Both the position numbers and the translations under genes were made by a program. 37,492 nt of DNA from the IMG/VR virus record IMGVR_UViG_3300033146_004280, positions 1 to 37,492 of that record, one strand, 5' to 3'. Below the pieces are notes generated by a model. The model saw only the letters and a program-made list of their open reading frames with translations, had not been told where the DNA came from and searched no databases. Numbering within the stretch: the stretch's first letter is position 1; each line of letters opens with the position of its first letter. This stretch comes from a virus. Of the stretch, positions 2,647 to 33,463 are shown piece after piece.

Positions 2647-2654
2647 TATAAATA
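2647..2654 (+). promoter_or_regulatory. T4-type late promoter, probably giving a leaderless mRNA
   Basis: TATAAATA is followed by exactly 4 nt and then the ATG at 2659, the same arrangement as at 1248. It overlaps the 3' trailer of the preceding tRNA. Confidence 0.6.
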
Positions 2655-2658
2655 ATGT

Positions 2659-3333
2659 ATGAATTACATAATATATAAGGTAACAAACTTAATAAATAAA
2701 AAAATCTATATAGGAGCTCATAAATGTGAAGACATTAATGATGATTATATGGGTTCAGGTAAGTATTTAAAAAATGCTCAAGATAAGTACGGTATAGAAA
2801 ATTTTCATAAGGAAATTATAGAAATTTTCGATAATTCAGAAGAAATGTTTCAACTAGAGTCTCAATTAGTAAATGAAGAATTTATTAAAGATACTAATAC
2901 TTATAACCTTAGATTAGGTGGAAATGGCGGATTCGATTATATAAATTCTAATAATAAGAATTTATACTATAATGATGAAGGTGAATTATTAAATGGTAAA
3001 AATTGGAGTTTAGCTGGAAGGGCGAAACAAAAATGGTTATTTGAAAATGATCCAGAATGGGTCAAATCTTTATCTAATAGTTTATCTGTAAGTAGTAAAA
3101 AATATTTTGAAGATGGTGGCATTAATGGGTTTGCTGGTAAAGCACATTCAGATGAAACCAAGAAAAAAATAGGTGAAGCAAATTCAAAACACCAAAAAGG
3201 CGAAGGTAATTCGCAATTTGGTAAAGTATGGATTTATAATATAGACTTGAAAGAGTCTAAGAAAATAGAAAGAGATAAACTCCCTGAATATTTAGATTTA
3301 GGTTGGCTTAAAGGCCGTAAAATGAAGTTTTAA
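2659..3333 (+). CDS. GIY-YIG homing endonuclease
   Basis: This 224-aa paralogue of the protein at 1260 has GIY-YIG motifs YIIYKVTN (3-10) and KIYIGAHK, and a similar N-terminal domain through about residue 80. The middle (about 90-140) is diverged. From SLSVSSKKYFEDGG onward it is almost identical to the paralogue, with a NUMOD3-like motif and the GWLKGRKMKF end. The sharp change in similarity suggests gene conversion of the DNA-binding half. It lies between a tRNA with GTT anticodon and tRNA-Asn, and its stop is 5 nt from the start of tRNA-Asn. It has a late promoter and no SD. Confidence 0.85.
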   Translation: MNYIIYKVTNLINKKIYIGAHKCEDINDDYMGSGKYLKNAQDKYGIENFHKEIIEIFDNSEEMFQLESQLVNEEFIKDTNTYNLRLGGNGGFDYINSNNKNLYYNDEGELLNGKNWSLAGRAKQKWLFENDPEWVKSLSNSLSVSSKKYFEDGGINGFAGKAHSDETKKKIGEANSKHQKGEGNSQFGKVWIYNIDLKESKKIERDKLPEYLDLGWLKGRKMKF

Positions 3334-3808: not shown

Positions 3809-3816
3809 TATAAATA
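3809..3816 (+). promoter_or_regulatory. T4-type late promoter of a pseudoknot leader
   Basis: TATAAATA lies exactly 4 nt upstream of ATAAGAG, the first strand of the leader's outer stem. The same spacing occurs in the three other leaders. Confidence 0.65.
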
Positions 3817-3820
3817 TATT

Positions 3821-3898
3821 ATAAGAGATATTAAATATGTAGAAGCTCTTCGACGTTCCTTCTACATATTTAATCTGAACGTCGAAATTCACTCTTAT
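3821..3898 (+). ncRNA. 5' pseudoknot leader of HNH endonuclease gene (copy 1)
   Basis: Outer stem ATAAGAG (3821-3827)/CTCTTAT (3892-3898). Stem A is a perfect 16 bp, 3830-3845 with 3859-3874. Stem B is TTCGACGTTC (3849-3858) with GAACGTCGAA (3877-3886); its 5' strand lies in the loop of A and its 3' strand lies after A, which is an H-type pseudoknot. The start codon follows 21 nt after the outer stem. Three other endonuclease genes carry the same architecture with different stem sequences. Confidence 0.75.
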
Positions 3899-3919
3899 AA
3901 TTTAATAAAAAGAATTATA

Positions 3920-4576
3920 ATGAACTATAAAAATATAAGCATTCTACTCGGTGAACAATCTAAATATAGTATAACATATATTAATATAATTAGAAAAGCA
4001 CATGATAGACAAAGAGTTATAAATCCTAAAATATATGAGAATCATCATATATTACCTAAGTCAATATTTCCTAAATATAAATCTTTAATAAAACATAAGT
4101 GGAATTCAGTATTACTAACATTTAAAGAGCACTATATTTGCCATCTATTAATATACAAACATTATAAAAGCATATTTAAGAAAAATGAATTTAAAAAAAT
4201 GGCGTATGCAATATTAGGAGTTAAAAATTCTACCGGTTATGCTAAAAATAGAATTAATGCAATAAAACTTAATACTGTTATAATAAATAAGGAATGGTTA
4301 CAGAATGAATTAAAAACCAAGAATTTAACATTAATAGTAGAAGAATCCAAATATAGTAAATATTTATTAACAAAATGTATAAAAGAATATAATTTAATAC
4401 AATATGTTAAATATGGAAAAGTTCGAGATGGACGAGAAGGAGATAAATTCGATATAGATAAAGAATGGTTGCAGAATGAATTAAAAACTAAAACTATTTC
4501 TGAAATTGCTACTAATAATTTTAGTGTTAGAGTTATCAGAAATAGGATAAAAAGGTGGAATTTAATATTAGTTTAA
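3920..4576 (+). CDS. HNH homing endonuclease
   Basis: The 218-aa protein has an HNH-type core at about 41-80: ENHHILPKSIF, then LLTFKEHYICHLLIYKHY, with paired His as metal and catalytic ligands. The C-terminal part carries two copies of a helix-turn-helix-like unit starting NKEWLQNELKTK and DKEWLQNELKTK, which probably contact the target. It is basic, AT-rich and free-standing. Expression probably depends on the late promoter and pseudoknot leader upstream; the Shine-Dalgarno is weak. Confidence 0.8.
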   Translation: MNYKNISILLGEQSKYSITYINIIRKAHDRQRVINPKIYENHHILPKSIFPKYKSLIKHKWNSVLLTFKEHYICHLLIYKHYKSIFKKNEFKKMAYAILGVKNSTGYAKNRINAIKLNTVIINKEWLQNELKTKNLTLIVEESKYSKYLLTKCIKEYNLIQYVKYGKVRDGREGDKFDIDKEWLQNELKTKTISEIATNNFSVRVIRNRIKRWNLILV

Positions 4577-4888: not shown

Positions 4889-5233
4889 ATGAATAAAATC
4901 GGAATTTGGATAACAATAGTTGCACTAGCATCAATGGCGGCTTGTGCTGATATTAAAGCAGATACAAATGCTACAGAAATAAGTGTACAGAAATGTACTG
5001 GTTGTCATGGTAAAAACTTTGACAAAAAAGCCCTAGGGAAATCAAAAGTAGTTTCAGAAATGAAATATTCAGAGATTAAAACAGCATTAGCTGGTTACCA
5101 AGATGGTACTTATGGTGGGACTATGAAAGGTCTTATGGTTGGTCAAGTAAAAGATATGAATGAAACTTCAATTGATGCTATGTCAATGCATATTGCAAGA
5201 GATTGTAATGAAACGGTTTGTATCGTAAAATAA
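4889..5233 (+). CDS. Periplasmic c-type cytochrome, c553-like
   Basis: The 114-aa protein starts with a Sec signal peptide (about 1-23, hydrophobic GIWITIVALASMAA then CA). A single haem site CTGCH lies at about 36-40, and the region GGTMKGLMVGQV near 76-87 supplies the likely distal Met ligand. ALGKSKVVSEM and GYQDGTYGGTMKGL match what I know of Campylobacterota cytochrome c553 proteins, small carriers between the bc1 complex and terminal oxidases. Maturation would use the host haem-attachment machinery. It stands alone between structured RNAs with its own promoter and SD. It was probably acquired from the host, and keeping respiratory electron flow is the obvious guess for its role. Codon 18 is followed by CA, so a lipoprotein signal cannot be excluded. 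Confidence 0.8.
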   Translation: MNKIGIWITIVALASMAACADIKADTNATEISVQKCTGCHGKNFDKKALGKSKVVSEMKYSEIKTALAGYQDGTYGGTMKGLMVGQVKDMNETSIDAMSMHIARDCNETVCIVK

Positions 5234-5911: not shown

Positions 5912-6616
5912 ATGCAAACATCTAAATGTTTCTGTGTAAATTGTGAAACTATTCAACAAGGCGGCTCTAAATGCTTAAAGTGTCAAAGTGACTCTTTATT
6001 CCATATTGGCACTATCGCGAGATTCCCAAAACACCCAAAGAAAGAAGATTACGAATACTTATTTGGTATTTTAATCAACTCAATGACACGTTCTTATGAC
6101 TTAAAAAATGTTACGAAAATTCATAAGTATATTACTAATCACAAATATAGTAATAGTATAAATCCAAATGTAAAATTATCTTATAAAGAGAGAGCTGAAG
6201 CATTACTTAAAACTGCAAATGAAAGAAAACTTCAAAATCAGAAAAAAATTGATGAGAAAAGACTCAGTGGTATTTGGGCTTTTTTTAATGATGATGAACT
6301 CACTGTATTAAAAAACATAGGTACTAAAGATAAAAAAGATTATTATATTCAAGGATTAGGGTTTTTCTTAAGTAGAGAATCTTATAACATCAATGATGAA
6401 ACTAATCCATTTAGACCTAAAAAAGCCCCAAGTAAATGGGTGGGTGATGCAATTTTCTTTAAGACAAGAAGAGAAGCTTTAGCTGTTTCAGCTACAGTAT
6501 GTCAAAAGTTTTTAGATTCTGAAGTCTCTGAAGGACACGGAAAACTAATAGAATTCGCTAAAACGTATGCGAAGAAACAAAGTCTACAGGATTTACTTCC
6601 TGAATATTTTGTATAA
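5912..6616 (+). CDS. Zinc-ribbon protein with PEYFV tail, unknown function
   Basis: The 234-aa protein opens with a four-cysteine zinc ribbon: C-x-x-C at CFCVNC (about 6-11) and C-x-x-C at KCLKC (about 20-24). The rest is basic, with a helical segment near 90-125 and no motif I recognise. It ends LPEYFV, the tail shared by many small proteins here. In this gene the tail codons are CCT GAA TAT TTT GTA and do not overlap the next gene, which has its own AGAAGGA. It heads a probable operon running to 7880 from the promoter at 5880. Confidence 0.7.
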   Translation: MQTSKCFCVNCETIQQGGSKCLKCQSDSLFHIGTIARFPKHPKKEDYEYLFGILINSMTRSYDLKNVTKIHKYITNHKYSNSINPNVKLSYKERAEALLKTANERKLQNQKKIDEKRLSGIWAFFNDDELTVLKNIGTKDKKDYYIQGLGFFLSRESYNINDETNPFRPKKAPSKWVGDAIFFKTRREALAVSATVCQKFLDSEVSEGHGKLIEFAKTYAKKQSLQDLLPEYFV

Positions 6617-7930: not shown

Positions 7931-8896
7931 ATGACATTTAAAGAAAAATATGGAGATAAATCAAATGAAGTATATGATGGAGATTTAAACGTATCAATGG
8001 AAAGATTAACATCTTTAGAGGGTTGTTATAAAATAATCAAAGGAGACTTTTATTGTCATAATAATAAACTAACGTCATTTAAGCATTGTCCGGATATCAA
8101 AGGAAACTTTGATTGTTCTAATAATAAAATAACTTCTTTTGAACATTGTCCGGATATCAAAGGAAACTTTGATTGTTCTAATAATAAAATAACTTCTTTT
8201 GAACATTGTCCGGATATCAAAGGAAACTTTGATTGTTCTGATAATAAAATAACGTCTTTTAAACATTGTCCGGATGCCAAAGGAGATTTTAATTGTTCAT
8301 ATAATAAAATAACGTCATTTAAACATTGTCTGGATATCAAAGGATATTTTGATTGTTCTAATAATAAAATAACGTCATTTAAGCATTGTCCAGATATCAA
8401 AGGATATTTTGATTGTTCATATAATAAAATAACGTCATTTAAGCATTGTCCAGATGTCAAAGGAGACTTTTATTGTCATAATAATAAAATAACGTCTTTT
8501 GAACATTGTCTGGATATCAAAGGATATTTTGATTGTTCTAATAATGAACTAACGTCATTTGAACATTGTCCGGATGTCAGAGGGATCTTTAATTGTTCTA
8601 ATAATAAAATAACGTCTTTTAAACATTGTCCAGATGTCAAAGGAGACTTTTATTGTCATAATAATGAACTAACGTCATTTAAACATTGTCCAGATGCCAA
8701 AGGAGACTTTGATTGTCATAATAATAAAATAACGTCTTTTGAACATTGTCCGAATATTAAAAGAGGCTTTTATTGTTCTAATAATAAAATAACGGTATTT
8801 AAATATATTAAATATTATAAAATTATTAATTTTGATTTAGAACATTTAGAATATCTAGAATACTGTAATATACATTATCCAGAGTATTTAGTTTAA
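7931..8896 (+). CDS. Leucine-rich-repeat-like protein, PEYLV tail
   Basis: The 321-aa protein is built of about thirteen 20-residue repeats of the form CPDIKGNFDCSNNKITSFEH (about residues 37-297). This resembles the short LRR-like repeats common in phage proteins, giving a solenoid for protein binding. The DNA repeat unit is exactly 60 bp, and the units starting 8101 and 8161 are identical, showing recent expansion. The first 22 residues and the promoter are nearly the same as those of 32789-33463, so the two are duplicates with different repeat numbers. It ends YPEYLV. The partner is unknown. Confidence 0.75.
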   Translation: MTFKEKYGDKSNEVYDGDLNVSMERLTSLEGCYKIIKGDFYCHNNKLTSFKHCPDIKGNFDCSNNKITSFEHCPDIKGNFDCSNNKITSFEHCPDIKGNFDCSDNKITSFKHCPDAKGDFNCSYNKITSFKHCLDIKGYFDCSNNKITSFKHCPDIKGYFDCSYNKITSFKHCPDVKGDFYCHNNKITSFEHCLDIKGYFDCSNNELTSFEHCPDVRGIFNCSNNKITSFKHCPDVKGDFYCHNNELTSFKHCPDAKGDFDCHNNKITSFEHCPNIKRGFYCSNNKITVFKYIKYYKIINFDLEHLEYLEYCNIHYPEYLV

Positions 8897-10349: not shown

Positions 10350-10792
10350 TGAAAATATTATCTAATAATAAGAAAGCTAAATTCGATTACTTTTTAAGTG
10401 ATTGTTTAGAAGCCGGTATGGTATTAACAGGTGCTGAGACTAAATCAATTGTTTCTGGGAATATTTCACTAAAAGAATCTTATGTAAAAATTATAGGCTC
10501 AGAAGTTTTCTTAATCGGTGCGCAAGTTACACCATCACAAAATCTTGTATTTTCAAGTTACAGTGATTTCAATTCTAATAGAGATAAGAAATTATTACTG
10601 AATAAAAAGCAAATTAAGAAGTACAGTAAACTAACTCAAGAAGTTGGTACAACTTTAATATTAAAAGATGTTTATGTTGCTGAAAACGGAAAGATTAAAT
10701 GTACTGTTTGTGTAGGAAAAGGTAAAAAGAATTTTCAGAAGAAAAATCTTATTAAAGAGAGAGATTTAGATAGACAAATTGGAGAGGTTTAA
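10349..10792 (+). CDS. smpB: SmpB, tmRNA-binding protein
   Basis: The 147-aa protein aligns along its length with the bacterial SmpB pattern: NNKKAKFDYFLSDCLEAGMVLTGAETKS (6-33), GNISLKESYVKI (37-48), FLIGAQVTP, a KKLLLNKKQIKK helix (about 80-91), GTTLILKDVYV, and the tail KGKKNFQKKNLIKERDLDR that enters the mRNA channel. SmpB binds tmRNA and brings it to stalled ribosomes. Together with the tmRNA at 5481 it makes a complete phage trans-translation pair. It is last in the 8988-10792 operon, with a TAATG overlap upstream. Its 3' end overlaps by 27 nt an endonuclease remnant on the other strand, which may have replaced the last residues. Confidence 0.92.
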   Translation: MKILSNNKKAKFDYFLSDCLEAGMVLTGAETKSIVSGNISLKESYVKIIGSEVFLIGAQVTPSQNLVFSSYSDFNSNRDKKLLLNKKQIKKYSKLTQEVGTTLILKDVYVAENGKIKCTVCVGKGKKNFQKKNLIKERDLDRQIGEV

Positions 10793-11059
10793 TTTACAAT
10801 TATCTAAATGCCATCTTTTTATAACATTTATTGATATCATACATTTACAATGAGGGCATTTCTCTTTTTTATGTACCTTACCTTTATGAATTCCTTTCAT
10901 TTTTAATTTCCGCTCTTCTGAAAATTTAATTCCTAAATTTGCGTCACTTAATTTTCTTTTATGCTCTTCGGTTTTAATAATTCCTTTTTTAGCTTTCGAT
11001 ATATTTTTATTATGTTCTTCTGAATTCTTTCTGCCTAATTTAGATTTTGACATTTTCAA
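10766..11059 (-). pseudogene. C-terminal half of a frameshifted homing endonuclease
   Basis: In this frame the protein reads KMSKSKLGRKNSEEHNKN, GIIKTEEHKRKLSDANLG and GIKFSEERKLKMKG, three NUMOD3-type DNA-binding repeats. A Cys/His finger follows (CPHCKCM with a later HLDNC). The only start is a TTG overlapping the stop of the upstream ORF (AATTGA), and the preceding ORF ends GYKHTEKTN. In intact relatives that runs directly into KLKMSKSKLG. One missing T explains the break. It is either a dead gene, a sequencing indel or a frameshift product. Confidence 0.65.
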
Positions 11060-11547
11060 TTTGTTTTTTCTGTATGTTTATATCCCAAATGTACAGAGAT
11101 TAAATTGCTATTATTATAAAATTCATTTTTTGTAACTGTTAAAGTAACACCATTTTCATCGATACAATGGACTTGGTCAAAATGAGATTTACTTAAGTTA
11201 TCCCTATGCTCATCATTAAAAGTATTATTTATTCTATACCATTTTATAGCTAATGATTTATTCATATACTTATCATTATATATTAGATTATGCCTTTTCT
11301 GATAAATATATTCGGCTATTGTTGCCATGTTTCTTTTATAAAATTTTCTTAAAATTTTAGTCTTAAACAAATGTGGATTATTTTTTCTTTCCTGGACCCA
11401 AATTTTCTTATATTTTTTAGATGATACTGAACCATTATAACCATTTTCGATTTTCGATATAGTACCAGATCCAAAATACCATGGTGGTAATTTATTACCT
11501 AAATAATGAGTTAAATATATACAATATTCTTTTTGATTTCTAGACAT
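11056..11547 (-). CDS. GIY-YIG homing endonuclease, N-terminal part of a frameshifted gene
   Basis: The 163-aa reading frame starts after a good SD (TATAGGAG). It holds a divergent GIY-YIG domain: YCIYLTHYLG (8-17), WYFGSGTISKI (23-33), then TKILRKFYKRNMATIAEY. It ends at a stop where the NUMOD3 region should begin; that region continues in the +1 frame at 11059. A late promoter and pseudoknot leader lie upstream on the same strand. It is inserted tail-to-tail against smpB. Confidence 0.7.
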   Translation of the reverse strand: MSRNQKEYCIYLTHYLGNKLPPWYFGSGTISKIENGYNGSVSSKKYKKIWVQERKNNPHLFKTKILRKFYKRNMATIAEYIYQKRHNLIYNDKYMNKSLAIKWYRINNTFNDEHRDNLSKSHFDQVHCIDENGVTLTVTKNEFYNNSNLISVHLGYKHTEKTN

Positions 11548-11571
11548 TGAAGTCTCCTATAATTTATAATT

Positions 11572-11646
11572 ATAAGAGGGTTGATGGACCAAAATATATA
11601 AGCCGATAGGTCCATCAAGAGTATCGGCTTATATATTATCTCTTAT
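11572..11646 (-). ncRNA. 5' pseudoknot leader (copy 4)
   Basis: Read on the minus strand. The outer stem ATAAGAG (11646-11640) pairs with CTCTTAT (11578-11572). Stem A is a perfect 16 bp (11637-11622 with 11608-11593). Stem B is TTGATGGACC (11618-11609) with GGTCCATCAA (11590-11581). The order A, B, A', B' makes an H-type pseudoknot. The promoter TATAAATA (11658-11651) is 4 nt upstream of the outer stem. The start codon follows 24 nt after the leader. Confidence 0.75.
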
Positions 11647-11679
11647 GATATATTTATATAAGCTAAATACTTATAAAAT

Positions 11680-12882
11680 CTAAAATTTATATACTATTTT
11701 AAACTCTATTTTATCTAAATTTGTAAACCAATCTTCTTTTTGTTGAACATTTTCGATATCGGTTGATTTAGAAATTGAGAAGAAATTAGGAACTTTTCTT
11801 GAAATTGTTTTGGTATATCTTGACTCTATACTTAAGTTATCTGTAATATCGAAACCACCAAAAACACTGTATTGGTCGGCTTCTCTATTTTGCCACCATG
11901 AATGATTACTTAAGAATAAAGTACCATGATTCATTGAAACCCAATTAGCATATGTTTTAAAATATTCAGTACCTATAAAATATCCATGACTACCAATTTC
12001 GTCTTCATATTTTAAATTTGCTTTCCAAGCATAACCAGTGTTATCTTGATTTTCTGTTTCAAATCCTGCATAAGGTAAAAATGGTTGGTAAGATGCAGGC
12101 ACTCTTGAATCTATTAATCCTTCAACATTTTCTTTTGAATTACTAATACCACCTTCTATTGAGAATAAAAATCCAGAATAAGCAGTATCATCAAAAATAT
12201 ATCCAGCGCCATATAAAGTTATATCTGTATAATCTAATGGTTCTTCTGTACCACTATTGGAAACAACATTTGCAGTAAAATAATTTAGTTCAAAGTAATG
12301 TCTGTCTTTTTCATAATTAATAATTGAGAAAAATCCATCACTACCATCATTATTATCATAACCTAATGAGTTATAATTTGCTTTATTGGTCCATTCGGCT
12401 ACACCAGCAATAAAATTAACACCTTCATATTCATATCTTAAGAATGAACCTAAGAATACTTGGTCAATTAGTAGCTCAATACCATTTCCACCATGTTTAG
12501 ATGGTTCCTGGATTTCTGAAAATTTTCCACCTCTAAATGGAATAAATCCACCGTATACCGAAATATCTTTATACTTATGAGATAACATAATAGAATTAAT
12601 TTGAAGATCATTTCTTTTTTTGTATCCTAATGATACATTTTTATAATCTGGGATTTCTTTATTGTGGTGAAATGCTTCAACATCTATATCTAATCCAAAG
12701 TGATAATACTCAGCTCTTACATTAAAATCCCAAGCTACTCTATGTAAATCGTCGTGAGATTTTATATATTTCGATTTACCACTTCCATAAATTGAATGTG
12801 TCTTTAAGATATTTTCCATTTCAAATTTAAACTCTTCTCCAAATAATGCTATACCCAATAATAAAACTAAGACTATTCTCAT
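11680..12882 (-). CDS. Outer-membrane beta-barrel (porin-like) protein
   Basis: The 400-aa protein begins with a signal peptide (MRIVLVLLLGIALFG, about 1-15). The rest alternates short amphipathic strands rich in Tyr, Phe and Gly, such as SVYGGFIPFRGG, SFLRYEYEGVNFIAGV and YFIGTEYF. It ends KIEFKIVYKF, a C-terminal Phe strand of the type the Bam machinery recognises. A barrel of the porin class is the likely fold; substrate and family are unknown. It is the last gene of the minus-strand operon, coupled by an ATGA overlap to the exported protein upstream, with GGGAG as SD. A host-derived porin carried by a phage could change uptake or block superinfection. Confidence 0.75.
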   Translation of the reverse strand: MRIVLVLLLGIALFGEEFKFEMENILKTHSIYGSGKSKYIKSHDDLHRVAWDFNVRAEYYHFGLDIDVEAFHHNKEIPDYKNVSLGYKKRNDLQINSIMLSHKYKDISVYGGFIPFRGGKFSEIQEPSKHGGNGIELLIDQVFLGSFLRYEYEGVNFIAGVAEWTNKANYNSLGYDNNDGSDGFFSIINYEKDRHYFELNYFTANVVSNSGTEEPLDYTDITLYGAGYIFDDTAYSGFLFSIEGGISNSKENVEGLIDSRVPASYQPFLPYAGFETENQDNTGYAWKANLKYEDEIGSHGYFIGTEYFKTYANWVSMNHGTLFLSNHSWWQNREADQYSVFGGFDITDNLSIESRYTKTISRKVPNFFSISKSTDIENVQQKEDWFTNLDKIEFKIVYKF

Positions 12883-13148
12883 GATAATCTCCCGAAGTTA
12901 AGTTTCTTGCTATAATTATAAAGGCAAAGCATCAAAATCTTTTTTTCTTCTTTAGATATGTGATAAATGTAACATTTATCGTTATTATTAAGAAAGCGAA
13001 TCCAGCCTTTAGTACTTTTAGTTCTAAAATCTAATCCTTTTTTTATAAGAATAGATTGGATTTTTTTATTTAAAGAACAAGCTTCACTTGCTGTTGCTTC
13101 TACAGATAAGAATAATAAAATAATAATAATAATTGCTAATGATTTCAT
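12879..13148 (-). CDS. Small exported protein, unknown
   Basis: The 89-aa protein has a clear signal peptide (MKSLAIIIIILLFLSVEATA, cleavage near 20-22). The mature part is short and basic, with three Cys (SEACSLN, DKCYIYH, MLCLYN). It overlaps the histidine kinase (ATGA) upstream and the barrel gene (ATGA) downstream. Its position between a sensor and an outer-membrane protein suggests a periplasmic accessory or ligand-binding role, but nothing in the sequence proves it. Confidence 0.65.
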   Translation of the reverse strand: MKSLAIIIIILLFLSVEATASEACSLNKKIQSILIKKGLDFRTKSTKGWIRFLNNNDKCYIYHISKEEKKILMLCLYNYSKKLNFGRLS

Positions 13149-14452
13149 AATTCACCTTTATCGGAACAAATTATATTTGCCCATTCTGCTTTAATGTTGA
13201 GCTTAAATATAGTCCCAGCCTTATCGGTTTTGACAAGTTTTAAACTACCTTTAGCACCTTCAAGTAATTGTTTATTAATAAATAGACCATTACCTCTTTT
13301 TTCACCGTTAGATTTCGTTGAAAAATCTTCATCATATATTTTATTTATATTATGTGACTTAATACCATTACCATTATCCGCTATAAAAAATGATAGTTCA
13401 CCAATTTTTACAGCATTTTCCATTGTAATTTTAATATTGGTACTATGCGCATCAATAGAATTTTTAAGCAAATTAAGGATAACTGCAATTAGTTCGCCAT
13501 TTTGCATAAATGTATTGTTTAATGTAAAATTATGAAGGTCTTCATCAATAATAACTTTAAAATGTTCAGATTGAGTAACTAGTAAAACATTTATAGTAGT
13601 TTCTAATACTTCATATATATTTTTCTCATTATCTTTTTTTAGAGATTTGAATGCTTTCATTTTATCTAAAACATCTGAGAGTTGTAATAAACTAGCATCA
13701 ACTAATTTAAAATCCCTTGCAAATTCATCAAAATGATTAAGGCAAGCTTCTTTTTCTCGTTTACATAAAGAACAGTTTCTATCAGTTTTAATTTTCTCAA
13801 AGAAGTGTTCAATTTTATGTATCTTATTTGAAACTACAGTTAATGGGGTGTTAAGTTCATGGTGTAAATTTTCTGTTAAGATTGCCACATTTTTCGAGTA
13901 TATTTCTGAATCTCTTTTAAGAACATTTAAATATCTTATTTTATTATTATGCCTTAGTCCTACTATTAATAATGATATATTTAGGAATAATATAATGAAT
14001 ATAATGTTTAAACTTTGAGTCTTAAGTATTTCCATAATATCATTAATATTTATTACAACAAATCCATTTATCGGAGCAAGTTTAATATAAACATCTAACT
14101 TATTGGTGATATATCCGTTATTGGAAATTTTTAAGATTGTTTCTATAACTTCATCAGTTTGTTTTAACTGTTTAATATCTTTATATTCTAAATTTGTGGA
14201 GTAAGTTATATTATCAGTAGATATATATAAACAATCTGATAATATACATAAGTGTTCTAAATCAATTTCTTCATATTCAAAAACATTTTTCTTTACATTA
14301 ACAACTGTTCGCTCTACATATATAGTAGCTATTGTATATACTAGTGTAAGATTAGCAACAAATAAAACACTTAATATATAGATGAATAAGTGTAAATTCT
14401 GCTGGACAGAATCTTTAACATAATTAACTATATACTTGGTTGGGCAATTCAT
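13145..14452 (-). CDS. Membrane sensor histidine kinase
   Basis: The 435-aa protein has two transmembrane helices (about 21-46 and 149-166) flanking a periplasmic sensor region of about 100 residues. The H box HHELNTPL (197-204) gives His198 as the likely phosphorylation site. The ATPase domain shows the N box NLLKNSIDA (327-335), G1 DNGNGI (359-364) and GNGLFI (387-392). Between the H box and ATPase is C-x2-C-x6-C-x2-H (227-240), a possible metal or redox site. The gene follows the response regulator with AAAGGG as SD and overlaps the next gene by ATGA. All key kinase residues are present, so activity is expected. Confidence 0.85.
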   Translation of the reverse strand: MNCPTKYIVNYVKDSVQQNLHLFIYILSVLFVANLTLVYTIATIYVERTVVNVKKNVFEYEEIDLEHLCILSDCLYISTDNITYSTNLEYKDIKQLKQTDEVIETILKISNNGYITNKLDVYIKLAPINGFVVININDIMEILKTQSLNIIFIILFLNISLLIVGLRHNNKIRYLNVLKRDSEIYSKNVAILTENLHHELNTPLTVVSNKIHKIEHFFEKIKTDRNCSLCKREKEACLNHFDEFARDFKLVDASLLQLSDVLDKMKAFKSLKKDNEKNIYEVLETTINVLLVTQSEHFKVIIDEDLHNFTLNNTFMQNGELIAVILNLLKNSIDAHSTNIKITMENAVKIGELSFFIADNGNGIKSHNINKIYDEDFSTKSNGEKRGNGLFINKQLLEGAKGSLKLVKTDKAGTIFKLNIKAEWANIICSDKGEL

Positions 14453-14453
14453 T

Positions 14454-15110
14454 TTAACCCTTTAGCTGAAATTCTTCTTTTTTAAATAACTTTACAATAT
14501 CTGCTTTGGTTTCTTGATAATTTTTGTTGCCTTTGAAGATAATAAATCTATCAATTTTCTCATCAAAATTATTCTCAAATTTATTTACTTTAAGTTTAAT
14601 GTAATCAACATATTCAGAAATAACATTACCTGTATAAAAACATAAGTTATGACATTTGTATTCTTCATTTAATAATATAGCCACATCGATTCCATCTAAT
14701 CTTGTAAGTTTATCACCTAAATTCATTTTACCAGGTAACACTATATCAATAATAGCATAATCAATTTTATCTATGTCTATGCTTTCTAGAGTTCTCTTTA
14801 AAACAAATGGTGCATATTTGTCATAGAATGTAAGTATATTATATTCATCTAAATTAATGATTCCTTCTTTTTCAATATCATTAATAATGTCTTCAATAAT
14901 AGAAACTATACCTCTTGAATCATCAATAATTATAATATTCTTTTTAGCTGGGTCATACTCATTAATAATTCTTTCTATTGGGATTTTTAAATCTACTTCG
15001 TGCTTATCAGCACAGATTCTAGACATATCCACACATTCAGCCATAACCTCAACTTCTTTCTTTTTAAATAATGCTTTTATTATATTAAATAACCATATAA
15101 ATTTATTCAT
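14454..15110 (-). CDS. Response-regulator receiver protein
   Basis: This receiver domain lies at about 58-210: acidic pair in IIIIDDSRG (61-68), phosphoacceptor Asp in YAIIDIVLPGKM (about D123), Thr in CFYTGN, and Lys in IIFKGN. There is no DNA-binding output domain, so it probably signals by protein contact. The first 20 residues (MNKFIWLFNIIKALFKKK) form a hydrophobic-basic helix that could hold it at the membrane. Two ATGs are possible; the second (15110) is better placed after AGGAG, which lies within the last codons of the upstream gene. It is the natural partner of the kinase downstream. Confidence 0.75.
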   Translation of the reverse strand: MNKFIWLFNIIKALFKKKEVEVMAECVDMSRICADKHEVDLKIPIERIINEYDPAKKNIIIIDDSRGIVSIIEDIINDIEKEGIINLDEYNILTFYDKYAPFVLKRTLESIDIDKIDYAIIDIVLPGKMNLGDKLTRLDGIDVAILLNEEYKCHNLCFYTGNVISEYVDYIKLKVNKFENNFDEKIDRFIIFKGNKNYQETKADIVKLFKKEEFQLKG

Positions 15111-15408
15111 CATCGTCTCCTGGTACTTTAATTTTAGCCGATTTTTCTATTTTTATTCCATAATAAGATAATATACCTTCTATTAAATATTCACTTCTAG
15201 CTATTCCAACTATAATTCCAAGAGCAACACACACAGCTGCAATTACTTTAATATTTTCTATTGAGAAATAAGCCTTATGTTTTTTATTCGGTTTAGTAGA
15301 AAACGATATTTTATCTATTATATTACTATTAAAATTTCCAGTAAATTCTATCAGGTCTTCTAATGTTAATCTTGTAAGTTCTTTATCGGTCTCAAAACGG
15401 TCAAGCAA
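15103..15408 (-). CDS. Small membrane protein, possibly frameshifted at its start
   Basis: The visible frame begins with a TTG without SD. It has a single transmembrane helix (about 53-68, VIAAVCVALGIIVGIA) and an acidic end, PGDDDE, whose codons contain the SD and overlap the start of the regulator. A different frame upstream, from a TTG at 15485 with a weak GGAA, reads MEDLKKLNDNIKNLRIRLR, a coiled-coil-like segment. It would join this protein by a slip or one extra base in the T5 run near 15399-15403. The real gene may therefore be 15103-15485. It is first in the operon with regulator, kinase, exported protein and barrel. Confidence 0.55.
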   Translation of the reverse strand: MLDRFETDKELTRLTLEDLIEFTGNFNSNIIDKISFSTKPNKKHKAYFSIENIKVIAAVCVALGIIVGIARSEYLIEGILSYYGIKIEKSAKIKVPGDDDE

Positions 15409-25495: not shown

Positions 25496-25516
25496 TTAAT
25501 ATCTTATAAATAAAAT

Positions 25517-25603
25517 ATAAGAGATATTAAATGTGTATGTGAGTTGCTCTTTCAGGACTCTTCTCATATACATTTAATGTAGTCCTGAAACCTACACTCT
25601 TAT
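25517..25603 (+). ncRNA. 5' pseudoknot leader (copy 2)
   Basis: Outer stem ATAAGAG (25517-25523)/CTCTTAT (25597-25603). Stem A, 25526-25543 with 25563-25578, has about 16 bp with a 2-nt bulge and a G-U. Stem B is TTTCAGGACT (25550-25559) with AGTCCTGAAA (25581-25590), a perfect 10 bp across the loop of A. The promoter TATAAATA (25505-25512) is 4 nt upstream. The ATG follows 22 nt after, preceded by TATAGGA. Confidence 0.75.
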
Positions 25604-25625
25604 AATTAAATTTATAGGAATTAAT

Positions 25626-26483
25626 ATGTTAATATATAAACATACTTGCTCAATTAATAATAAATCATACATTGGTTTAACTACACTTACCCTTCACAGA
25701 CGATTAAAAGAACATCTTAAACAAGTAAGATTCGGTTCTAAATATCATTTTCATAATGCAATTAGAAAATATGGAATTGAAACATTTACTTCTGAAATAT
25801 TAGAAGATAATATAATTGATAAAGAAATTCTAAAACAAAGAGAAATATACTGGATTAAGCATTATAATACTTTTTTAGGAGAAGGTTATAATATGACTGA
25901 TGGTGGAGATGGATGTAATGGTGGAAAATTACCTTTGAGCCATTTAATTTGTAAAAATTTAGAAACTGGATTATATTTAATGGTACATAAAAATGAGTTT
26001 AAATTAAATAATAATTTAGTTGGCCCAAATTATGGTAATAAGCATTCAAAAGAAACAATAGAAAAATATAAAACGGATAGAAAAGGCCAAGTTCCTTGTA
26101 AAGACCTAGATGGTAATTATTTAACCGTTTCTAAAGAAGAATATGAAGAAAGAGACGATCTAATTGGTGTATGGAGTGGTAGAAAACATTCAGAAGAGTA
26201 TAAGAAAAAGATGAGCATAATAGGGTCAGGTAAAAATAATGCAATGGCTGTTATAACAGAAATTTATAATGAAAATGATGAATTAATGTTTAGTTGCGAA
26301 GGCAGTTTTAAGAAAACTTGTGAAGAAAACAATTTACCATTAAGTGCTCTTGGTAAATCAATAAAAACTAAAACTCCAATATATTTAAATATTTATCCAA
26401 AAATTATAAATAAGTTAATAGATAAAAAGTGGTATCAATATAAAGGTTGGTATGCTAAAACAAAGGATAAATTATTTGTGTAA
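25626..26483 (+). CDS. GIY-YIG homing endonuclease
   Basis: The 285-aa protein opens with LIYKHTCSINNKSYIGLTT (2-20), LHRRLKEHL and AIRKYGIETFTSEIL, a complete GIY-YIG domain to about residue 95. Two copies of a C-terminal module follow (ICKNLETGLYLMVHKNEF and CKDLDGNYLTVSKEEY), with NUMOD3-like YGNKHSKETIEKYK and GRKHSEEYKKKM, and a final ICE-type helix. It sits exactly in front of the Ntn hydrolase gene; its last codons contain the SD and overlap the probable start of that gene. Confidence 0.85.
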   Translation: MLIYKHTCSINNKSYIGLTTLTLHRRLKEHLKQVRFGSKYHFHNAIRKYGIETFTSEILEDNIIDKEILKQREIYWIKHYNTFLGEGYNMTDGGDGCNGGKLPLSHLICKNLETGLYLMVHKNEFKLNNNLVGPNYGNKHSKETIEKYKTDRKGQVPCKDLDGNYLTVSKEEYEERDDLIGVWSGRKHSEEYKKKMSIIGSGKNNAMAVITEIYNENDELMFSCEGSFKKTCEENNLPLSALGKSIKTKTPIYLNIYPKIINKLIDKKWYQYKGWYAKTKDKLFV

Positions 26484-29755: not shown

Positions 29756-29780
29756 TTAAGCTATACTTAATATAGCTTAA
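29756..29780. terminator. Bidirectional hairpin between convergent genes
   Basis: TTAAGCTAT/ATAGCTTAA with a 7-nt loop lies between the ATPase stop and the last codons of the endonuclease on the minus strand. A T run is weak. Confidence 0.5.
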
Positions 29781-30375
29781 CAGAGCAAGTTAATAATTCA
29801 TTTATACTTGCTCCTTTAAGAATTCTTTCACCCTTATATTTAAGGTGTGAAAATTTCTTAGATACTTCCTTCTCTAAATCTAAAGCATCTTGACCATTTA
29901 AAAAAGATATTTCATATAATACAGTCATTCTATCTCTATCTTGTTTCTCATATCTTAGTTTAAAACTTCTATTTGTTATTCCAAATTTATATGCAATACC
30001 ATTATCAATTCTAGCGAAATAAAATGTTGCAGGTTTCATAGGGTCAAATCCGCCTCCACCCTTAGTCATATGTTTACAAACTTCATCCATAATATTCATT
30101 CTATGAGCAGCATGATAAGCAGCTCCACATTTATTCTTAAAATCGGTTCTTTTCGTATATTTTAATGTTTCTATTTGTATTGTTTCTTGAGTCCATCTAA
30201 CTACTTTTTTCATGTGACTACATATATAGTCTACATTTAATAATTCTTTATGTCTAGTCATATAACAATATGCAGCACCCGCATTAAGTTTAAACTCACT
30301 TCTTGTGTTATACGGAATTGCAGCAACCCGTAAAGTTTCATTATTCCAATTAAGATTTCTTTTGATTTTTGGCAT
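29767..30375 (-). CDS. MUG113/T5orf172-type (GIY-YIG superfamily) endonuclease
   Basis: The 202-aa protein carries two copies of a DNA-binding unit, WNNETLRVAAIPYNTRSEFK (10-29) and WTQETIQIETLKYTKRTDFK (about 66-85), each followed by GAAYxxxxR. The C-terminal nuclease domain reads FYFARIDNGIAYKFGITNRS (about 117-136), LRYEKQDRD, then EKEVSKKF and KGERILKG. This fits the divergent GIY-YIG group found in phages. It starts after TATAGGA and a pseudoknot leader on the minus strand and lies between the ATPase and the gene at 30517. Confidence 0.75.
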   Translation of the reverse strand: MPKIKRNLNWNNETLRVAAIPYNTRSEFKLNAGAAYCYMTRHKELLNVDYICSHMKKVVRWTQETIQIETLKYTKRTDFKNKCGAAYHAAHRMNIMDEVCKHMTKGGGGFDPMKPATFYFARIDNGIAYKFGITNRSFKLRYEKQDRDRMTVLYEISFLNGQDALDLEKEVSKKFSHLKYKGERILKGASINELLTCSVKLY

Positions 30376-30396
30376 GTGGTTCCTATAAATTTAATT

Positions 30397-30476
30397 ATAA
30401 GAGTAAGTTGTCCGACTTAAATTTCTTATACTACACAGTCGGACAGAGAATGTAGCATAAGAAATGTATCTCTTAT
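30397..30476 (-). ncRNA. 5' pseudoknot leader (copy 3)
   Basis: Minus strand: outer stem ATAAGAG (30476-30470)/CTCTTAT (30403-30397). Stem A has 15 bp with one G-U (30465-30451 with 30435-30421). Stem B is AGTCGGACA/TGTCCGACT in plus-strand terms (30437-30445 with 30409-30417). The A, B, A', B' order is a pseudoknot. TATAAATA (30488-30481) lies 4 nt upstream. Confidence 0.75.
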
Positions 30477-30480
30477 ACAT

Positions 30481-30492
30481 TATTTATAAATA
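30481..30492. promoter_or_regulatory. Palindromic divergent late promoter
   Basis: TATTTATAAATA reads TATAAATA on both strands (plus 30485-30492, minus 30488-30481). One side serves the pseudoknot leader of the minus-strand endonuclease, the other the gene at 30517. Confidence 0.6.
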
Positions 30493-30516: not shown

Positions 30517-31095
30517 ATGAGTTTAAAAAATTACATGAACGAAAGTACTCAAGTTGATGAACAAGTTGTAAAATACTTAGCATTAACAGAATTAATGGAA
30601 ATGGATTCTAGTGCTCTTAATGAGAGTACTATTAATGAAACTGCAGAAAATATTGTTGAAGGTTTAAACGATAAACTTAATAAATTAGGTTTAAAAATTC
30701 ACAAAGGTTCTGGAATACTAGATTATATTAAATCATTTGCTACTGGAGTAGGGAAAGTATTCTTAGCTCTAATTAAAGGTGATACAGTTAAAGCTAAAGA
30801 AATTCTTAAGACACTGAAGAAAGAAGACGTTTTAGACTTCATCTATAAATTAGATTTAGGTACATTACATTTATTCACAGGTCCTCTGCACATGATAGAT
30901 GCTTGGACGGGTTGGGATTTATCTGCTAACATTAAACAGCACATGGCTAAAGCTCAAAGCTTAGCTCAAGTATTCAAAGATGCTGTTATAAAACTTAAAG
31001 ATACAATTGTTAATGGTTTCTCAGGAAAACAACAAAAAAATCTTATGAAACATGCTCAAGCACTTGAAAATGGTGCAGGAACTGCAGCAGTTTAA
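30517..31095 (+). CDS. Phage protein of unknown function, late
   Basis: The 192-aa protein begins MSLKNYMNESTQVDEQ and is helical, with a hydrophobic middle (FATGVGKVFLALI; LHLFTGPLHMIDAWTGWDL, about 70-135) and an Ala/Gln-rich end. The short polar N-terminus recalls propeptides of internal head proteins in T4-like phages, but no cleavage site can be proved. SD CAAGGA and the late promoter at 30485 fit a virion or assembly protein. Confidence 0.65.
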   Translation: MSLKNYMNESTQVDEQVVKYLALTELMEMDSSALNESTINETAENIVEGLNDKLNKLGLKIHKGSGILDYIKSFATGVGKVFLALIKGDTVKAKEILKTLKKEDVLDFIYKLDLGTLHLFTGPLHMIDAWTGWDLSANIKQHMAKAQSLAQVFKDAVIKLKDTIVNGFSGKQQKNLMKHAQALENGAGTAAV

Positions 31096-32788: not shown

Positions 32789-33463
32789 ATGACATTTAAA
32801 GAAAAATATGGAGATAAATCAAATGAAGTATATGATGGAGATTTAGATATAACAGGTGAAGGTTTAACATCTTTAGAGGGTTGTTATAAAATAATCAAAG
32901 GAAACTTTGATTGTTCTGATAATAAAATAAAGTCTTTTGAACATTGTCCTGATGTCAAAAGAGATTTTAATTGTTCATATAATAAAATAACGTCATTTAA
33001 ACATTGTCCGGATATCAAAGGATATTTTGATTGTTCTAATAATGAACTAACGTCATTTGAACATTGTCCAGATATAAAAGGATATTTTGATTGTTCATAT
33101 AATAAAATAACTTCTTTTGAACATTGTCCTGATGTCAAAAGAGACTTTTATTGTTCTAATAATAAAATAACTTCATTTAAACATTGTCCGGATATTAAAG
33201 GTTATTTTGATTGTTCATATAATAAAATAACGTCTTTTGAACATTGTCCGGATATCAAAGGAGACTTTTATTGTTATAATAATAAAATAACGTCTTTTGA
33301 ACATTGTCCTGATGTTAAAGGGAGCTTTAATTGTTATAATAATAAAATAACGTCATTTAAATATATTAAATATTATAAAACTATTAATTTTGATTTAGAG
33401 CATTTAGAACGTTCGGAATATCTAGAATACTGTAATATACATTATCCAGAATATTTGGTTTAA
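32789..33463 (+). CDS. Leucine-rich-repeat-like protein, PEYLV tail (paralogue)
   Basis: The 224-aa protein shares its N-terminus (MTFKEKYGDKSNEVYDGDL), promoter and C-terminal region (FDLEHLE to NIHYPEYLV) with 7931-8896 but has only about eight 20-residue repeats. Repeat units mix between the two genes, as expected from recombination. The repeats have conserved Cys, Phe and Asn positions forming a solenoid. Differing repeat number suggests that partner specificity or reach is being varied. Confidence 0.75.
   Translation: MTFKEKYGDKSNEVYDGDLDITGEGLTSLEGCYKIIKGNFDCSDNKIKSFEHCPDVKRDFNCSYNKITSFKHCPDIKGYFDCSNNELTSFEHCPDIKGYFDCSYNKITSFEHCPDVKRDFYCSNNKITSFKHCPDIKGYFDCSYNKITSFEHCPDIKGDFYCYNNKITSFEHCPDVKGSFNCYNNKITSFKYIKYYKTINFDLEHLERSEYLEYCNIHYPEYLV

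Follow-up and report, generated by a model that had tools for sequence, protein, structure and literature searches.

A structured RNA leader precedes four endonuclease-like genes in the analysed stretch of viral DNA (hereafter the window, the 37,492-base IMG/VR virus record IMGVR_UViG_3300033146_004280) and recurs in other viral contigs, and the preferred reading, held at a probability of about 55%, is that it acts in cis as a translational ON/OFF switch on late homing-endonuclease transcripts. The leader is arranged in the order O5, stem A (14–21 bp), L1, stem B (7–13 bp), A′, B′, a short spacer, O3 and the AUG, with A′ adjoining B directly in most copies and with an A′–B′ linker of 0–5 nt, mostly 0–2 nt. 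The evidence read in the DNA itself consists of the promoter position, the covariation of A and B together with a single O pair in which both bases vary, the dual complementarity of O3 and the association with homing genes, from which the switch is proposed.

Leader copies in the window and in other viral contigs

T4-type late promoter sequences are present in the window, together with 21 tRNA matches and about ten endonuclease-like genes. On three contigs bearing the same leader, Gp23 major capsid genes were clearly identified, and searches with Gp23 indicated T4-like Vibrio and Campylobacter phages as the nearest named relatives. The four copies that the first-pass annotation had placed in the window were all recovered to the exact base, and the outer stem ATAAGAG/CTCTTAT that it had described around strands ordered A, B, A′, B′ was seen in each of them, as listed below.

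3809–3816, + strand: late promoter of copy 1, TATAAATA, exact match, 4 nt before O5
3821–3827, + strand: O5 of copy 1, ATAAGAG, where the late transcript is predicted to begin
3830–3845, + strand: 5′ strand of stem A of copy 1, 16 nt
3846–3848, + strand: L1 of copy 1, conserved CUC (CTC in 44 of 45 copies)
3849–3858, + strand: 5′ strand of stem B of copy 1, 10 nt
3859–3874, + strand: 3′ strand of stem A of copy 1
3877–3886, + strand: 3′ strand of stem B of copy 1
3892–3902, + strand: O3 of copy 1, CTCTTATAATT, partner of O5 or of the AUG region
3912–3920, + strand: alternative O3 partner of copy 1, GAATTATAA, extending into the AUG
3920–4576, + strand: HNH-type homing endonuclease gene after copy 1 (phrog_655, E 5e-18)
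25505–25512, + strand: late promoter of copy 2
25517–25603, + strand: leader copy 2 (O5 25517–25523, A 25524–25543, L1 25544–25549, B 25550–25559, A′ 25561–25580, B′ 25581–25590, O3 25597–25603)
25611–25619, + strand: alternative O3 partner of copy 2, TTTATAGGA, including the SD
25626–26483, + strand: GIY-YIG and NUMOD3 homing endonuclease gene after copy 2 (Pfam PF01541, PF07460)
30481–30488, − strand: late promoter of copy 3, which shares bases with a TATAAATA pointing the other way on the + strand
30397–30476, − strand: leader copy 3 (O5 30476–30470, A 30468–30450, L1 30449–30446, B 30445–30437, A′ 30436–30418, B′ 30417–30409, O3 30403–30397)
30381–30389, − strand: alternative O3 partner of copy 3, TTTATAGGA
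29767–30375, − strand: endonuclease-like gene after copy 3 (phrog_681 endonuclease, E 9.5e-14; no Pfam match)
11651–11658, − strand: late promoter of copy 4
11572–11646, − strand: leader copy 4 (O5 11646–11640, A 11637–11622, L1 11621–11619, B 11618–11609, A′ 11608–11593, B′ 11590–11581, O3 11578–11572)
11554–11564, − strand: alternative O3 partner of copy 4, AATTATAGGAG, 11 bp with O3
11056–11547, − strand: homing-endonuclease-like gene after copy 4, possibly broken (tblastn to T4-type coliphage HNH/homing endonuclease genes)

The copy-4 endonuclease runs on in another frame at 10766–11059, and a longer homologue occurs in contig L017; the split into two overlapping frames suggests that the gene has decayed while its leader stayed intact. 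At 30481–30492, TATTTATAAATA combines two late promoters that overlap and point in opposite directions, serving leader copy 3 on the − strand and a gene at 30517 on the + strand.

With few exceptions, the copies have the promoter TATAAATA 4–7 nt ahead of O5, the distance being 4 nt in all four copies of the window. It is already known that T4 late transcription begins about six bases downstream of the late promoter element, and with this spacing O5 should therefore be the very 5′ end of the transcript. Thus, the position of the promoter supports the leader as the 5′-terminal RNA of late transcripts, with a predicted start. The distances from the leader to the promoter and to the AUG are near-constant. 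Most downstream proteins, some of whose genes are cut by contig ends, match homing, HNH or GIY-YIG endonucleases, NUMOD3 or DUF7487, and a minority is without family match; several homing-endonuclease-like families are accordingly found behind one leader, as had been claimed from the window alone. In copy 2 and in L039, stem A is common, B differs by a compensated change and the downstream endonucleases differ. Two further homing endonuclease genes of the window, near the tRNA cluster (1248–1931 and 2647–3333), have their ATG (1260 and 2659) 4 nt after TATAAATA, so that both are probably expressed as leaderless late messages, which indicates that late expression as such needs no leader.

Further copies had been expected in related phages, and 41 were found in other viral contigs, giving 45 distinct copies with those of the window; this tally pools an outer-motif search, an interleaved-stem scan and two more pattern scans, and many of the copies lie on fragments of uncultured phages, some sharing a contig, so they do not count as independent events. 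The search with the outer motif only, which is blind to inner pairing and free of the upward bias of the scan, returned 70 viral stretches, and interleaved stems scoring at least 52 were present in 20 of them (21 matches). The split was clean, the leaders scoring at least 52 and the next best match 25. The unbiased interleaved-stem scan gave 48 matches at this threshold, including double counts from overlapping loci and antisense reading, versus one in shuffled sequence. A looser promoter/outer-stem pattern occurred in at least 120 stretches and provided no new copies among the matches listed, and ten stretches of GTDB contigs with the pattern contained no leader. The outer motif after a late promoter was absent in the phages nearest by gp23 (Vibrio phiKT1024 and Va1, Campylobacter CP21 and CJLB-13), and the leader was not found in three T4-type phages carrying homologues of the copy-4 gene. 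When compared with 4227 Rfam 15 families at gathering and relaxed thresholds, the leader matched none, the only hits being tRNAs and one weak unrelated miRNA match, and no pseudoknot leader of homing genes is described in the open-licence literature searched. The leader represents a family of structured RNAs, associated with phage homing endonucleases, that had not been described before.

Other features of the window were also observed. About 15 otherwise unlike small proteins share a near-identical C-terminus, ...PEYFV/I, encoded by differing codons (ORFs ending at 6616, 21304, 22226, 23004, 34125, 34325, 36882, 37376 and others), and 19 such ends occur in the related contig L224; judged by sequence, this ending looks like a shared C-terminal tag. 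A related gene pair at 7931–8896 and 32789–33463 is built of repeated units of ~20 residues (CSNNKITSFKHCPDIKG). By eye, possible host-derived genes lie at 4889–5233 and 11680–15408, comprising a c-type cytochrome (CTGCH motif), an outer-membrane-like protein, for which a search gave no relatives, and a sensor kinase/regulator pair.

Covariation and geometry of the interleaved stems

The natural covariation claimed for the inner stems proved strong in both A and B. Across seven copies aligned without gaps, 182 of 182 cells were paired (100%), versus 31–39% with partners slid, and 21 of the 26 pairs had changed on both sides, versus 10.9 in shuffles. The covariation score of this set was 0.80, against 0.26 in shuffles, none of 500 reaching 0.80, and about 0.1 with slid partners. 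Each core position of A and B was paired in 30–32 of 32 copies, percentages of pairing that are biased upward because the scan rewards pairing, and covariation spans the whole of A and the whole of B. The further statement that the inner stems differ completely was too strong, since the window copies share 3–8 of 14 A bases and GTAGAnR is frequent in the upper part of A. Likewise, the length of 15–16 bp given for stem A suits some window copies, and in copies 2 and 3 it can be drawn up to 19–20 positions. On the sense strand, 33 G·U pairs were counted versus two A·C pairs, a count favoured by the G·U tolerance of the scan, under which the antisense strand was scanned identically. This difference indicates that selection acts on the transcribed sense-strand RNA.

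Regarding the H-type pseudoknot that the first-pass annotation had proposed, the interleaved order of the strands stood, whereas the coexistence of both full stems did not, given the short A′–B′ linker. The loop length of a classical H-type fold is not reached, only 0–5 nt being available for a stem of 14–21 bp. By our own estimate from A-form geometry, a 16-bp strand spans roughly 45 angstrom, which such a linker would not bridge, so that B and a complete A exclude each other; on the same estimate, about 11–12 bp of A could stay in a pseudoknot. The likely state is therefore either a pseudoknot in which A is open at its foot or a switch between A and B. The mean predicted energies are nearly equal (−17.5 kcal/mol for the A hairpin and −17.4 kcal/mol for the part-open pseudoknot, under a standard pseudoknot penalty), and the conservation of both full stems suggests that the A and B pairings probably alternate or succeed each other during transcription. 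With stems this long and interleaved, the leader is an unusual example from nature of either strand exchange or a partly opened pseudoknot. Two other identities were rejected, namely a tRNA-like element with the 7-bp outer stem as acceptor, as the leaders match no tRNA model, and a self-cleaving ribozyme, as the conserved unpaired core is absent.

A dual-use strand at the ribosome site and its possible roles

Besides pairing with O5, O3 (CUCUUAUAAUU) is complementary to the ribosome-binding site or to the stretch up to the AUG. In most copies this second partner is UUAUA(A)GGA(G), and in a second class it is (G)GAAUUAUAA, which enters the AUG. In staged folding with A held, O5:O3 was predicted in 45/45 copies at the end of O3, and it was supplanted by O3:ribosome site in 44/45 when the AUG was reached; in the controls, such pairing arose in 13% of trials when another ribosome site of these phages was used and in 10% when the sequence was shuffled. 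The O3 duplex energy was −6.6 kcal/mol in the leaders versus −3.6 kcal/mol in 457 other ribosome sites. The idea that the leader masks the ribosome site is thus retained as a prediction, with O3, and not stem B, as the masking strand.

In two copies with O5 ACAAGAG and O3 CUCUUGUAUUC (CUCUUGU), the ribosome-site partners (GGAUACAA and GGAAUACGA) carry the matching C, within AUACAA and AAUACGA, so one strand has changed together with two partners. This three-way change of O5, O3 and ribosome site is the strongest evidence for a switch, in a pair of copies that may be related and that are the only ones with varying O stems. Additionally, the O3 endings AAUC and AAUUC are matched by GAUU and GAAUU in L030, L050 and L065. 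The mean difference between O5:O3 and O3:ribosome site was +2.3 kcal/mol in favour of OFF when only A was present and +1.2 kcal/mol with a pseudoknot surrogate, a crude term that moved the balance by about 1 kcal/mol only, and the two states lay within 1.5 kcal/mol in 20/45 copies. In this model, the module would be near balance, with the pseudoknot leaning to the open state. Even with the surrogate, OFF was favoured in 32/45 copies, suggesting that the ON state may be transient or need a factor.

In the proposed mechanism, the late promoter would set the transcript start at or beside O5 (AUAAGAG), and in the emerging RNA stem A would form first, followed by pairing of O3 with O5, a state that would leave the ribosome site, once made, free (ON). 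The ribosome site (UUAUA(A)GGAG, or GGAAUUAUAAUG in the second class), once out, would compete for O3 and thereby mask itself (OFF). Formation of B would require the foot of A to open and would draw O5 and O3 together, favouring ON, and the long A hairpin alone would favour OFF. Each late message would then yield a nuclease burst that is short or conditional, wherever the mobile gene had landed. We infer the transcript start, the folding order, the translational effect and the role of A/B. The leader suggests how selfish nuclease genes could carry their own expression control when moving, and the dual use of O3 offers clear point mutations for testing.

The strong conservation of A/B and of the L1 CUC is not fully explained by this switch, for which a plain O5/O3 pair would suffice. 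For the CUC, whose bases hardly vary, a triple helix or pairing of L1 with O5 was considered as a conceivable role. A tentative and rather doubtful extension is that A and B, as exclusive helices of near-equal energy, serve as a slow clock for the time during which the ribosome site is free, in a portable, position-independent unit, which would give each late message a limited translation window. It was also considered that the O stem and the A/B module might guard the late message from 5′-dependent decay (through RNase J or RNase E/RppH) and shield the mobile gene from the influence of its surroundings, with secondary effects on translation. Protection by 5′-terminal stems, as in ompA, is a known principle for mRNA, and here the structure starts at the predicted first nucleotide and is conserved as structure rather than as sequence. 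However, such a shield does not predict the O3:ribosome-site pairing of 44/45 copies, and the homing genes at 1260 and 2659 start 4 nt past the promoter without any leader; taken together, protection and insulation seem rather unlikely as the main role.

Silencing of the RBS in early transcripts was one of two roles suggested by the first-pass annotation, the other being protection of the 5′ end from an exonuclease such as RNase J. In silencing of the T4 type, the promoter arm UAUAAAU of early or middle RNA started upstream would pair with AUUUAUA before the SD and so mask it, and late RNA would lack this arm. I-TevI and mobE are described as following this rule (PMC2988022, PMC3014915), the promoter is complementary to the pre-SD stretch in many copies, and predicted SD openness drops in the readthrough RNA of some of them (L030, L050, L066). 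Nevertheless, mean predicted openness was equal in the two RNAs (0.15 late versus 0.16 readthrough, and 0.32 versus 0.30 with the pseudoknot surrogate), several copies changed in the opposite direction, the upstream gene is divergent in 11/30 copies, and A and B are left without a role, so the restriction to early transcripts is not supported and this mechanism is judged unlikely. A receptor function of A/B, in which a metabolite or a phage or host protein would choose between O5:O3 and O3:ribosome site, agrees with a modular anatomy resembling receptor plus expression platform and with the CUC of L1 kept in 44/45 copies; it is nonetheless quite improbable, considering that A (14–21) and B (7–13) vary freely and that almost no conserved unpaired bases are available for a pocket. 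Finally, an element acting as DNA (cruciform, operator or recombination site) could account for the inverted repeats, and I-TevI itself binds DNA to repress its own late promoter (PMC2988022), but the G·U excess on the sense strand, the near-constant promoter and AUG distances and the many unrelated endonucleases downstream make it barely credible.

Relation to known phage leaders

The translational switch proposed here resembles the hairpins that mask the RBS of T-even and related homing genes (I-TevI, I-TevII, I-TevIII, segB and Aeh1 mobE), with which it has in common the homing gene downstream, the late promoter at the leader and a helix able to mask the SD, here predicted for the SD/AUG (PMC2988022). 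In I-TevI, the placement of the late promoter lets only upstream-initiated transcripts form the masking structure (PMC2988022). In contrast, masking confined to readthrough transcripts is not predicted for the present leader, in which the strand that would mask is encoded past the late start and the 5′ end competes for it, with interleaved A/B between the two. In Aeromonas phage 25, the GIY-YIG homing gene seg43 likewise has a stable hairpin close ahead of an RBS that is not part of the stem, but this is one plain 9-bp hairpin without an interleaved stem. The T-even gene 32, also from T4-type phages, resembles the leader in having a 5′ pseudoknot followed by an A+U-rich ribosome site, and gp32 binds this pseudoknot for autoregulation (PMC3014915); unlike the leader, it is not a homing gene, and no dual-use strand is described for it in PMC3014915. 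Binding by the encoded protein, as for gene 32, is unlikely here, given the many different downstream proteins. In translational riboswitches, one strand is shared by an upstream helix and an SD-masking helix (sequestor/anti-sequestor), as in the leader, which differs from them in being without a conserved receptor core or a known ligand. Therefore, the leader stands near the known T4-type masking leaders, to which it adds a contested strand and the A/B module.
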